Assembly: GCF_000213975.1 (NCBI RefSeq)
Contig: NZ_GL892076.1
Coordinates: forward strand, 1,603,548-1,667,547
Direction: 5' to 3'
Length of the DNA: 64,000 nucleotides
From: Centipeda periodontii DSM 2778
Lineage (GTDB): Bacteria; Bacillota; Negativicutes; Selenomonadales; Selenomonadaceae
A model generated the notes under the pieces. That model did no database searches. It was given only the letters and a program-made list of their open reading frames with translations, and was not told the origin of the DNA. The position numbers and the translations under genes are program-made. Positions within the stretch are counted from its first letter, which is position 1. Every line of letters starts with the position of its first letter. This document shows positions 4,429-38,904 of this stretch, piece after piece.

Positions 4429-4827
4429 TTACGTGAGATCGGCTTCAAGCTGTTGAATCAGCTCCATGTCCGCCTCAAACCACGGAACGCTGTAAAGGTC
4501 GGCGCGTCCGAGCCAGCGCCCTGCCGAGTGCACGCTCAGCTGCGGCTCACCCACAATGTGGCGGCAGATATAGAGGCGCATGTTCATGTGATACTCCGGA
4601 TAGTCGTGATCGACGATGCCGAGCAGGCGCTCCACGGCAACCTCGACACCCAGTTCCTCACGAATCTCACGCACAAGCGCCGCTTCATCCGTTTCCCCTG
4701 GCTCGACCTTGCCGCCCGCGAACTCCCATGTGCCGGCATAGGAACCGTAGCCGCGGCACGCACCGAACACCTTGCCGTCACGCAGGATCGCGCCCGCCAC
4801 AACATCAATATGCTTTCGTTCACTCAT
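4429..4827 (-). CDS. Nudix hydrolase, MutT-like
   Basis: The 132-residue protein carries a full Nudix box, from GGKVEPGETDEAA to REIREELGV (about residues 38-60), whose glutamates bind the metal for diphosphate hydrolysis. Length and the single-domain layout fit the MutT/8-oxo-dGTP diphosphatase group, which sanitises the nucleotide pool; the substrate is inferred from the family. It lies 3 bp downstream of gpsA on the same strand, so it is probably translated from the tcdA-gpsA message. Its stop is next to the tRNA-Leu promoter. Confidence 0.88.
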   Translation of the reverse strand: MSERKHIDVVAGAILRDGKVFGACRGYGSYAGTWEFAGGKVEPGETDEAALVREIREELGVEVAVERLLGIVDHDYPEYHMNMRLYICRHIVGEPQLSVHSAGRWLGRADLYSVPWFEADMELIQQLEADLT

Positions 4828-34958: not shown

Positions 34959-34988
34959 TTGACAGTGTAACGATCTATTTGGTAGAAT
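34959..34988 (+). promoter_or_regulatory. Promoter of the TonB-receptor leader
   Basis: TTGACA (34959-34964) and TAGAAT (34983-34988), 18-nt spacer, about 260 bp before the receptor start. Confidence 0.65.
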
Positions 34989-35029
34989 TAACTCGCAATT
35001 AAATAAACTTGTTTTCCGAGCAAAAATAT

Positions 35030-35217
35030 CTAAGGGCGCAGTGCCTATGATATTTCGCCTGAGCAAGCATTTTATGGAATGTTTACGCTCACAGGGTTAT
35101 CGCAGAAATGTGGCAGCCTTCCCGTATTGAAAAGGAAAACGACAGGAACGGACTGCTATTTTTATGTGCAGGGACTGTTTGTCGTGCGCTTTGTACGGGA
35201 AACAGTCCCTTTTTTGT
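35030..35217 (+). promoter_or_regulatory. Structured 5' leader with terminator (candidate riboswitch, Moco-like)
   Basis: The transcript between promoter and receptor can fold into one long branched stem (35032-35120): AAGG/CCTT, TGCC/GGCA, ATTTCGC/GC-GAAAT and GAGC/GCTC, ending in a GCATT/AATGT hairpin. After this comes a strong terminator, GGGACTGTTT/AAACAGTCCC plus TTTTTTG (35170-35216), well before the coding region. Blocks such as GTGCCTAT...TTCGCCT and GGTTA...GTGGCAGCC resemble my memory of the Moco RNA motif, but this is not a firm match. It is not a TPP, FMN or cobalamin element by the usual signature sequences. Confidence 0.5.
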
Positions 35218-35281
35218 GTGTATGGTGAACTGAAAAGGAGAGGTATTGATGAAATGAATACAGAAGTACCAGACAGCCCTT

Positions 35282-37228
35282 GTGGCGGCAATTGCGGCGG
35301 GGTTTGTGTTCCTACCGCAGGTATATGCCGCTGACTCAGCATATAAGACCGATGCGATCACAGTCGAGGCTGAGGACGTTGACAAGTATCTTGTGACGAC
35401 GAATACAATCACAGAGCAGGAGATTGCGGAGCGCGGCTATCGCAACCTCGCCGACATCCTCTCGCAGGTACCGGGACTCTATATGGCACCGGCGGATAAG
35501 AACAGCAAGATGGTGCGTATTCGTGGCGCAGAAGTCGGACAGACAAAAGTCTACATCGACGGCATCCCTGCATTCCCTCTCAACGGAATTGCATCAAATG
35601 CTGCGGCTGATCTCTCTACGATTCCCGCAGACAGCATTGCAAAGGTTGAGATCATCAAGGGACCGGGACCTGTCAAGTATGGGACAGACTATAAGGGCGG
35701 CGTTATTCTTGTGACGACGAAGGACGGCAACGGTGCGGGGAAATTTCGCCTGAGCATTGCGGGCGGTTCCCATCATACCTATGATATGCACCTTTGTTAC
35801 AGCGGCAGTGATAAAAATATCAGCTATACTCTGAATGCGTCAAAACGTCATACGGGTGGTTATTTGCCAAATTCTGCAAATGACAAACTGTATTTTGACG
35901 GGAAGATCAAGTTCAAGATGAGTGACAAATCCTTCCTGATGCTGAGCGGATATTACTCCAATATGGACAGTGAGATTTCCAATAGCGTCGATCCAATTAC
36001 AAGGAAGACACTTATTGCCAATATCAATTGGAGTTTAGCGCAAAATATTCCAAATGCGGTAAAAAGGAACAACAAGGCCAACAACTGGCATTACAAGGGA
36101 TTCAAACAAACCAACATAGCTCTTCAGTATGAGAGCCGTCCGAGTGATAAGTGGCAATATGATGTTAAATACTATCATCTCATTGACGAGAACAACCTTT
36201 GGGTGCATAACCTTTCTACAAGTGAAGGAGGAAGCATCTCAAGTTATAGCTACGCCGCTCTGGAATGGTATCGCAGTGGTTGGTTCTCCACAGGAAATGG
36301 TATCGAGACAAATGCCTCTGCCGCACTCGGCAATAAACATCAGCTGAGTTTTGGCGCAAAATATATCAAGCTCGATTGGCATACAGATGAGAACAACACA
36401 AATTTGAGTGATAAGGGAACGGATAAGCGCACAGGATTCTATATCGAGGATGCATGGAGTTTCAATGCAAAGACTCGAATGACGATCGGTGTGCGTCACG
36501 AATCACTGTCACAGGATGCAAACAACATAAAGAGTACGGACCACGCCATCGATCCCGTTCTCAATATCACACATGATTTGACGAAGTCGGATACGCTACG
36601 TTTCTCTGTCGGTCGTACACATGTTTTTGTTCAGGCAAAATCCGCAGCGACAAATATTCGTGCGAATGTGCCTGTGCCGAAGCCGGAACGTGACCGTAAT
36701 TTTGAGTTTGGTTGGAAGCACCGTTTCAGTCCAAAATCAGAACTTGATCTCGCTGTATTCTACACAGATGTTACGGATCGTATTGTTCGTCTCGTACGCG
36801 GCGGTCCGTATTACAACGTCGATCAGACAAAAATTCGCGGCGTAGAGTTCGGCTATCAGCACAAATTTACACAGAACTTCTCCAGCTTTGCCAATTATAC
36901 GTGGATGAGTGCAGAGGACAAGGCAAACGGAAAAACAACAGGTGCTACAGGGATTCCCCATCAAATATTTAACCTCGGTCTGACCTATCGTGAAGGAAAA
37001 TGGCGTTCGACGCTTCTTGGACGCGCGGTAAGCGGTTGGACGAATGGCAGTTCTTATCCGAACAGTACCGGATATTTTACAGCGGATCTCGACCTGCGCT
37101 ATGAACCGCAGACGGATCTTGGCGTTTTCCTGCGCGTCAATAATATCTTTAACAGGGATTATCAGGACAAGCTCTATCATCCGGCAGAGGGAACAAACTT
37201 CCTGCTAGGTGTGGATATGTCATTCTGA
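35282..37228 (+). CDS. TonB-dependent outer-membrane receptor, with in-frame stop at codon 3 of the natural start
   Basis: 648 codons are open. A plug domain (about 20-140: TDAITVEAEDV TonB-box region, ILSQVPGLYM, VRIRGAEVGQTKVYIDG, VEIIKGPGPVKYGTDYKGGVI) is followed by a 22-strand-type barrel ending in Phe (VDMSF), the outer-membrane insertion signal. The natural start is ATG at 35249 behind AAGGAGAGG, but its third codon is TGA (35255-35257). The GTG at 35282 would give a cut signal peptide (AAIAAGFVFLPQVYA) and has no ribosome-binding site. So the gene is a recent pseudogene, is read through, or reflects a base error. The ligand is unknown. Confidence 0.85.
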   Translation: MAAIAAGFVFLPQVYAADSAYKTDAITVEAEDVDKYLVTTNTITEQEIAERGYRNLADILSQVPGLYMAPADKNSKMVRIRGAEVGQTKVYIDGIPAFPLNGIASNAAADLSTIPADSIAKVEIIKGPGPVKYGTDYKGGVILVTTKDGNGAGKFRLSIAGGSHHTYDMHLCYSGSDKNISYTLNASKRHTGGYLPNSANDKLYFDGKIKFKMSDKSFLMLSGYYSNMDSEISNSVDPITRKTLIANINWSLAQNIPNAVKRNNKANNWHYKGFKQTNIALQYESRPSDKWQYDVKYYHLIDENNLWVHNLSTSEGGSISSYSYAALEWYRSGWFSTGNGIETNASAALGNKHQLSFGAKYIKLDWHTDENNTNLSDKGTDKRTGFYIEDAWSFNAKTRMTIGVRHESLSQDANNIKSTDHAIDPVLNITHDLTKSDTLRFSVGRTHVFVQAKSAATNIRANVPVPKPERDRNFEFGWKHRFSPKSELDLAVFYTDVTDRIVRLVRGGPYYNVDQTKIRGVEFGYQHKFTQNFSSFANYTWMSAEDKANGKTTGATGIPHQIFNLGLTYREGKWRSTLLGRAVSGWTNGSSYPNSTGYFTADLDLRYEPQTDLGVFLRVNNIFNRDYQDKLYHPAEGTNFLLGVDMSF

Positions 37229-37294: not shown

Positions 37295-38080
37295 CTATGC
37301 GAAATTCTTCTGCGGAAGGACATCCGCCATCTTGCCGCAGCTCGCAATGTCCGTTCCATATCCATAGTGGACGAGATCGGCAGCAAGGGCGGCATCGGTC
37401 ACGGTGAATCCCGAAAGTCCGTCTGCCCCGTAGTCAAAAAGGCATGGATGCATCGGCACAGAGGGACCAACAAGGACGGTCACAGCATTCCTTGAGAGTT
37501 CCAAGAGGCGCGGCATGGTCTTGTTGGCAAAGGTCGCCCCCGTCATAAAGACAAAATCCTGTTGCGGCAGGAGGAACTCAGCCGCCTCGGCTGGATAGTC
37601 CCCCCACTCCGGCTGCATCTCAAGGATGGATAGGTCGCAGATCGGTTCCCACTTCTTTTGGAAGTTCGGAAAATGCCCAACGACAGCAACCTTCTTTCCG
37701 CGAATCTGCTCCGTATACATGGCGAATGCTTCCAGTTTCTTGCGCTCATCCAGTGTCTCAGCGGATGCATCCTCACCGTGAAACCCCTGCATCACCTGTA
37801 CTTTTGACGGCTGATTGTAGTAGGCGTTGATAGCGGCCGTGGCGATGGATGCCTCCTGCCCCTGCCACGAGCGCACATACTCCCCCGCCTCACGAAGGGA
37901 GCAGCCGAGAAAGCTCTCCTTGCGCAGACGCGGGCGGCTGTAAGCTGGGATCGTCATGCAGACGCCAACGAGATCACCGGCACGGACATACGTCCACGGG
38001 CAGCTGACGACATAGCCATCGATGCAAATATCCTGCGGCAACCCTGCGATGATCTCATCGTAAAGATTCCAGTAGTTCAC
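37295..38080 (-). CDS. DUF364/DUF4213 putative metal-chelation protein
   Basis: 261 residues. The N-terminal part (MNYWNLYDEIIAGLP, VSCPWTYVRAGDLVGVCM) fits DUF4213 and the C-terminal Rossmann-like part (KKVAVVGHFPNF, EMQPEWGDYPAEAAEFLLP, FMTGATFANKTMPRLLEL, VGPSVPMHPCLFDYG) fits DUF364. Members are often found beside iron, cobalt or molybdenum uptake genes and are thought to bind metals or metallophores. Here it lies between a TonB receptor and an ABC ATPase fragment. Confidence 0.8.
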   Translation of the reverse strand: MNYWNLYDEIIAGLPQDICIDGYVVSCPWTYVRAGDLVGVCMTIPAYSRPRLRKESFLGCSLREAGEYVRSWQGQEASIATAAINAYYNQPSKVQVMQGFHGEDASAETLDERKKLEAFAMYTEQIRGKKVAVVGHFPNFQKKWEPICDLSILEMQPEWGDYPAEAAEFLLPQQDFVFMTGATFANKTMPRLLELSRNAVTVLVGPSVPMHPCLFDYGADGLSGFTVTDAALAADLVHYGYGTDIASCGKMADVLPQKNFA

Positions 38081-38157
38081 TAAAATACCTCCTCACAGAT
38101 CTGTTGATTCTAGGATAACACAGCAATTCAGAGGATTCAATCGAGAAAGGAAAATGC

Positions 38158-38904
38158 TATGGAAGCGTTCCCATCTTCCAAAACATTTCCTTTGCCGTCA
38201 ATCGCGGGGAAACGCTCTGTCTGCTCGGACCGAACGGCGTCGGCAAGACAACGCTCTTCAAGACGATTCTAGGGCTGCTGTCCCCGCTTGCGGGTGATAT
38301 ATTTCTATCCGGTGAGAATATGTCCGCATGGACCGTGCAGGAGCGGGCGCGTCGCATCGCCTACGTCCCGCAGGTGCATACGCCCCCCTTCCCCTTCACC
38401 GTGCATGATGTCGTTGTGATGGGACGAGCTGCCCACATCGGCAGTCTTGGCGTTCCCGGGAAAAAAGATCAACGGATTGCGGACGATGCGATCGAAATGC
38501 TTGACATCGCGCATCTTTCGCAAAAGATCTATACGAAGATCAGCGGCGGAGAACGGCAGCTTGTCCTCCTGGCGCGTGCCATCGCACAGCAGCCGCAGCT
38601 CCTGTGCATGGATGAGCCTACAGCAAGCCTCGATTTCGGCAATCAGGTGCTCGTGATGAATCGTATCCGCACGCTCAGTGCGGCGGGAATCACGGTGATC
38701 ATGACGACGCACGCCCCCAGTCATGCCTTTTACTGTGCAGATCAGACCGCAGTCATGGGACGGGACGGCGTGTTTTTCGTCGGTCAGACAAATGATGTGA
38801 TTACAGAGCAGCGACTGAAAAAACTGTACGGGGTTACGGCAAAGATTGTCGGATATGATAATGTTCCCGAAAGCCGCACATGCGTTCCCCTTCCTCCACA
38901 GTAA
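38158..38904 (+). pseudogene. FecE/BtuD-type ABC transporter ATPase lacking its start
   Basis: The frame encodes YGSVPIFQNISF, Walker A GPNGVGKTTLFK, the signature KISGGERQLV, Walker B LLCMDEPTASLD and the H-loop TTHAP, so the ATPase core is complete. But no ATG, GTG or TTG lies in frame between the upstream stop (about 38119) and Walker A. The ATG behind GAGAAAGG (38154) is in another frame. About 15-20 N-terminal residues have been lost. An internal ATG at 38320 would lack Walker A. Permease and binding-protein genes are absent. Confidence 0.75.

Follow-up and report, generated by a model that had tools for sequence, protein, structure and literature searches.

We analysed a window of 64,000 nucleotides (nt) from Centipeda periodontii DSM 2778 (the whole stretch of DNA under study; its genome is G000 below), in which the gene of a TonB-dependent receptor lies behind a structured leader of 292 nt. 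The leader carries an RNA of Rfam family RF01055, the aptamer of the molybdenum cofactor (Moco)/tungsten cofactor (Tuco) riboswitch. Downstream of the receptor follow a DUF364 gene on the opposite strand and part of an ATP-binding cassette (ABC) importer. The features of the locus, numbered from the first letter of the window, are these.

34959-34988, + strand: sigma-70 type promoter TTGACA-18-TAGAAT; a TG precedes the second hexamer; 11 of 12 matches; similar sites aligned in other leaders
35002-35153, + strand: Moco riboswitch aptamer RF01055; 75 bits, model positions 1-135; P3 present and extended; covariation in 40 distinct genus copies
35009-35017, + strand: 5' strand of P1; pairs with 35134-35142 if P1 takes its predicted 9-pair form
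35139-35185, + strand: predicted antiterminator hairpin; local fold -15.7 kcal/mol; shares positions with the P1 3' strand, at its end, and with the terminator 5' arm
35170-35215, + strand: intrinsic terminator; 17-pair hairpin 35170-35210 and TTTTTT 35210-35215; aligned in five leaders
35237-35251, + strand: ribosome binding site (about 35237-35243), then ATG (35249), which lines up with the start of orthologous receptors
35258-37228, + strand: TonB-dependent receptor frame with plug and barrel (PF07715 and PF00593 above cut-offs)
37295-38080, - strand: DUF4213/DUF364 protein ("putative heavy-metal chelation" in Pfam); also a receptor neighbour at L038, L039 and L040, by sequence resemblance
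38119-38904, + strand: FecE-type ABC ATPase frame lacking a good start; the binding-protein and permease genes of relatives are missing here

Identity and conservation of the RNA

The membership of the leader in RF01055 is firm. In an Rfam scan of the whole window at gathering scores, the aptamer is the sole riboswitch match (E 2.6e-16 over the window), it scores about twice the gathering score of 36 bits, and it covers the model completely over 152 nt. An earlier sequence-only reading of the leader had noted blocks recalling the Moco RNA motif, while leaving room for a new RNA class. The Infernal match to Rfam bears out the former and excludes the latter; the same reading was right about a structured leader and put its length, at ~130 nt, too low. 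The 292-nt leader folds at -85.8 kcal/mol compared with a shuffle mean of -72.35 (z -2.53; 3 of 200 shuffles equally good), and in the window copy 37 of the 41 pairs of the model are standard ones. The Rfam alignment shows a GAAA tetraloop on P4 together with CUAAG/UAUG in the P2 bulge, which we take to be the tetraloop receptor motif. The P3 cells are paired to 98% in the genus alignment described below, and it is the P3-containing form of the RNA that was tied to molybdenum by Regulski et al. 2008 (PMC2408646). By virtue of its family, the window RNA is predicted to respond to Moco.

Four other leaders of this kind, scoring 61.8-76.4 bits against Rfam, precede receptor genes or remnants in related genomes, and with the window leader they form a set of five (window, the intact and the remnant copy of G011, G010 and G003) in which aptamer and terminator are kept throughout. 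For a wider view, a model built from eight aptamers gave 43 matches in 41 genus loci, with two RNAs held twice, and an alignment of 40 distinct rows. In this alignment, 89.7% of cells pair and 31 of 41 pairs have two-sided changes; the covariation score is 0.505, whereas slid versions reach 0.052-0.120 and shuffles 0.182, with the proviso that the alignment was fitted to the structure and so favors it in this score.

Predicted control of termination

The consensus promoter and the strong terminator of the sequence-only reading are both upheld. The second promoter hexamer is TAGAAT in all five aligned leaders, and the first reads TTGACA in three of them and TTGGCA in a fourth, while the fifth has lost it; a promoter scan taken alone stays at the level of shuffles (2 found, 1.6 expected). 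The terminator stretch 35165-35225 folds at -27.7 kcal/mol, and its absence from the output of a simple terminator scan is probably caused by an internal mismatch. Terminator and antiterminator share 12 paired positions and are, by energy prediction, mutually exclusive, in agreement with the transcription-terminating riboswitch layout that had been proposed.

For a transcript reaching 35192, the predicted energies are -52.7 kcal/mol for the free fold, which has the 9-pair P1, -51.6 for the antiterminator fold, a close second, and -48.8 for the fold with the whole Rfam aptamer. Once the terminator is transcribed, aptamer plus terminator is at -66.8 kcal/mol versus -63.2 for the antiterminator. 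Ligand binding would thus favor termination. The antiterminator keeps 16 of its 18 pairs in both G011 copies and all 18 in G010. An alternative way to antiterminate pairs the 5' strand of P1 with the 3' arm of the terminator (7 pairs, -63.8 kcal/mol); we prefer the hairpin at 35139-35185 because it can form before the 3' arm of the terminator is made.

Based on these predictions, control of the window receptor by termination within the leader is likely, and we suggest the following model. When Moco is plentiful, the P3-containing aptamer would be stabilized with P1 closed. The closing of P1 would disfavor the antiterminator and allow the terminator to fold, and transcription would end before the receptor. 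When Moco is short, the antiterminator would take up the 5' arm of the terminator, and transcription would run on into the receptor. In E. coli, moa is reported to be repressed through an RNA of the RF01055 type when Moco is made (PMC2408646).

Pairing of the RNA with receptors and other genes

At E <= 1e-60, matches to the window receptor occur in six genomes among 151 of the family. In all four genus genomes with a near-complete receptor (G000, G011, G010 and G003) the RNA lies 88-97 nt upstream of the aligned start, and the conserved structure that the sequence-only reading had asked for upstream of orthologues is present in each. G006 has only a C-terminal part of the receptor and G027 a 41% relative, both without the RNA. 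We read the genes that follow 87 of the 118 genus RNAs as well as 62 class-level RNAs among the matches listed. The first gene after the RNA is a receptor, whole or as a remnant, in 5 of the 87, namely in G000 (with a stop), G011 (intact), G011 (remnant), G010 and G003 (both broken), and a receptor comes first in 2 of the 62. These screens relied on similarity to receptors in hand and could miss unrelated ones.

The intact cluster of G011 consists of the receptor, DUF364 on the other strand, and then a binding protein (L038:4890-5951), a FecCD permease and an ATPase. By resemblance, G010 has the same neighbours, and the permease frame of G003 is short (227 codons). A truncated second receptor copy in G011 (L042:3867-4528, -), the end of which reads as that of an ABC ATPase, has its own Moco RNA and adjoins an AddA-like gene, as the receptor does at the window locus.

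The window genome contains four RF01055 copies, the receptor leader included. The second precedes ModA-ModB-like genes adjoining MoaC. The third (L006:7699-7855, -) is followed, down to position 4537, by a FecCD permease, an ATPase and an HI_1472-like binding protein, and in six genus genomes a FecCD gene is the nearest one downstream of a Moco RNA. The fourth (G000:C1:619952-620122) leads, through a partly masked region, to NiFe hydrogenase. The genome also has two molybdopterin-oxidoreductase matches and three PF03544 (TonB_C) matches. An SLH-domain porin (L006:3022-4275, -) adjoins the Moco-preceded FecBCD genes, and a Moco RNA lies upstream of the gene for the NiFe hydrogenase small subunit in 12 of 14 genus genomes (L044, L045, L046, L049, L050, L051 and others; Pfam on one).

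RF01055 occurs in 84 of 300 genomes of the class and in 220 of 398 genomes of a phylum-wide search, and one of these, G639 from another family, has the RNA next to receptors again. Two of its RNAs lie 156 and 302 nt upstream of TonB receptors that belong to a second receptor family. A third heads an operon (L207:974-13154, +) in the order RNA-GidB-DUF364-GidB-receptor-GidB-receptor-ABC-TonB-ExbB-ExbD, the three GidB-like proteins being methyltransferases by resemblance, and this gene run may make and import a metallophore. A tandem triple RNA (L190:9937-10545, -) is ahead of a receptor that is 32-35% identical to the window receptor. P3 is deleted in all six of these receptor-linked RNAs, and the P3-less form of RF01055 is the tungsten type. 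A search allowing longer loops found terminator-like hairpins in the first three G639 leaders, in which a simple terminator scan had returned none on the coding strand; each RNA of the triple has, on visual inspection, a hairpin and a T run after it. A chance pairing of RNA and receptor was considered and rejected, since the pairing is conserved in the genus and recurs in G639.

Substrate of the receptor and competing explanations

We suggest that a Moco-sensing transcriptional OFF switch controls a TonB-dependent receptor that imports molybdenum, or tungsten in the case of G639. On balance we consider this the probable account. The RNA family, the leader anatomy, the covariation, the conserved receptor pairing and the gene neighbours come out of the computation; ligand, switch direction and substrate are what we infer. 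Molybdenum or tungsten, which the sequence-only reading had named for the case of a Moco-like RNA, is the best inference for the substrate of the window receptor. Most likely, the receptor would act together with TonB, a FecBCD-type ABC importer (complete in a relative and partly deleted here) and DUF364 in the import of a molybdenum complex, while the P3-less RNAs of the other genus would serve tungsten import; the cargo would probably be an oxyanion held by a chelator. HI_1472 (PDB 3psa/3psh), presumably MolA, a binder of molybdate and tungstate, is matched by the binding protein of the G011 cluster at E 1.6e-10 and by the one from the Moco-preceded FecCD operon of the window genome at E 1.3e-11. 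On the basis of genome context, DUF364 has been connected with the transport of molybdate and tungstate, and a part in the synthesis of a chelator resembling a flavin or pterin has been proposed for it (PMC2954201).

Several results weigh against this account, and they concern the RNA, the locus and the spread of the pairing. With regard to the RNA, P1 and P4 as the model has them are missing from the free minimum-energy fold of the full leader, which does contain P2 and the terminator. The overlap between antiterminator and P1 is small (1 position with the inner P1 of Rfam, 4 with the predicted 9-pair P1), and in G003 the antiterminator keeps 10 of 18 pairs. The five receptor leaders alone give no covariation above shuffles (1 pair two-sided, 421 of 500 shuffles as high), because the sequences are too alike; it is in the 40 distinct genus copies that covariation appears.

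With regard to the locus, the sequence-only reading had the order of the elements right, with promoter, leader and terminator all before the receptor start, but the start itself is cut off: an in-frame stop (TGA) at 35255-35257 lies one codon past the aligned ATG, and the open frame begins at 35258. The window copy lacks an intact start and signal peptide; the same region is open in the G011 orthologue. DUF364 and the ATPase are retained, but a stretch of about 2.1 kb that would hold the binding protein and permease is missing, and the window genome has no match to the G011 binding protein at E <= 1e-20. Two of the three other near-complete receptor copies are broken, with three stops in G010 and a split gene in G003, and fragments are found in G008 and G006. 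From these broken, truncated and fragmentary copies, the receptor locus looks dispensable in the genus and often lost. The window receptor may thus be poorly made or not made in this strain, and the locus in this strain may be a decaying relic, whose RNA may still work, an explanation that we regard as a serious one, at close to an even call, and that is compatible with any function of the receptor. The stop, the missing importer genes, the ATPase without a good start and the damaged copies in G010, G003, G006, G008 and G011 all speak for it. Against it, the other 656 codons of the window receptor are open and, relative to the intact G011 orthologue, have nonsynonymous and synonymous divergences (dN and dS) of 0.096 and 1.56, respectively; such strong purifying selection implies that any decay is recent at most. 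The stop could also be a sequencing error.

With regard to the spread of the pairing, 18 receptor matches were found outside the genus at E <= 1e-90; the RNA is directly upstream in one and not in 15, including G583, where an RNA lies >4 kb upstream, and the remaining two begin at contig ends. The second receptor family has 11 matches in nine genomes, two with the RNA directly upstream, two in the operon and seven with none near. All receptor pairings found outside the genus come from G639, one of nine genomes searched in its genus. In 17 regions around window-type receptors outside the genus, FecCD- or FecE-like genes are present in 12 and DUF364 in five, at the cut-off used. That 15 of the 16 assessable receptor relatives lack the RNA would fit a receptor for an iron siderophore, heme or another metal chelate, which Moco control ties to an anaerobic or molybdoenzyme programme. 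The closest sequence relatives in PDB, the receptors for colicin I, YncD/pyrroloquinoline quinone (PQQ), B12 and enterobactin, point the same way, as do the Moco RNAs ahead of NiFe hydrogenase, which indicate that not every target of the RNA in the genus handles molybdenum. Against this explanation, which we consider unlikely, stands the finding that receptors of two families, in two genera, are accompanied by Moco/Tuco RNAs and that DUF364 is close by in both settings.

We give even less credence to a receptor that scavenges an organic molecule such as Moco, molybdopterin or another pterin. Outside proteins, Moco is unstable. The MoaC and ModAB-like genes of the window genome imply that Moco is probably synthesized and molybdate imported, and the binding protein of the intact cluster resembles HI_1472, with the presumed role mentioned above. 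The idea has its precedents in the cobalamin riboswitch ahead of BtuB and the thiamin pyrophosphate (TPP) riboswitch ahead of a thiamin-type receptor, where the TonB-dependent receptor is predicted to carry the ligand itself (PMC5317091), and a flavin or pterin derivative is what DUF364 has been proposed to make (PMC2954201). The present system shares with these two a cofactor riboswitch ahead of a TonB-dependent receptor; it differs in aptamer and ligand, and if molybdenum import is the function, the cargo would probably be just the metal of the ligand.

Extending the account of molybdenum and tungsten import to diderm Firmicutes at large, we tentatively propose a TonB-powered outer-membrane route for both metals that is turned off by Moco/Tuco riboswitches, the chelates probably being made or processed by DUF364 and GidB-like methyltransferases. 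P3-containing RNAs would serve molybdenum in relatives of Selenomonas, and P3-less RNAs, even in triple tandem, would serve tungsten in a second genus with its own TonB-ExbB-ExbD. This broader proposal is plausible, somewhat short of probable.

The general view is that porins let molybdate pass the outer membrane passively. In Pseudomonas aeruginosa, IcmP has been reported as an outer-membrane partner in molybdate uptake together with a ModA secreted by the type VI secretion system (review PMC8602904), and the likeness to the system described here lies in that partner. IcmP is the one dedicated partner of this sort that we came across in the literature. The MolBCA system of Haemophilus influenzae is similar in that the binding proteins studied here match HI_1472; however, HI_1472 is the best match of neither, with uncharacterised entries scoring higher, which also counts against our account, and a term search found TonB absent from the main text of the MolBCA paper.

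As described in the main text of Regulski et al. (PMC2408646), members of the Moco/Tuco riboswitch class share the model helices and the GAAA tetraloop with the window RNA, and some have a terminator-type platform; the P3 form is that of the window, and a tandem triple, as in G639, is known from Syntrophomonas wolfei. The targets listed there are Moco synthesis, molybdate transporters and Moco/Tuco enzymes, whereas here the target is a TonB receptor. Term searches of that main text returned no TonB, outer membrane or FecCD, and a term search of the regulon survey PMC3766115 no TonB. A literature search limited to open-licence PMC papers yielded no paper joining the Moco riboswitch with TonB. 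In Pelobacter carbinolicus, TonB-gated channels have been noted near metal- or molybdopterin-binding proteins or near cobalamin and molybdopterin riboswitches (PMC3543383), in one pooled sentence of the text at hand that gives neither a gene-by-gene link nor a mechanism or conservation. Thus, the RNA class is known, and the searchable literature offers at most a hint of its use ahead of a TonB receptor. If our account is correct, active import of molybdenum or tungsten across the outer membrane becomes directly testable, a substrate is suggested for a set of unassigned receptors, and DUF364, whose function has so far only been proposed, is tied to the handling of these metals.

Two further arrangements were observed at receptor loci. 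At L038:8967-9379, two Moco RNAs lie in head-to-head orientation with 127 nt between them; one belongs to the receptor and the other to a ModA-like binding protein. Between two receptor genes of G639 lies a match to a group II intron (RF02005, 50.8 bits, L139:5021-5247, -).
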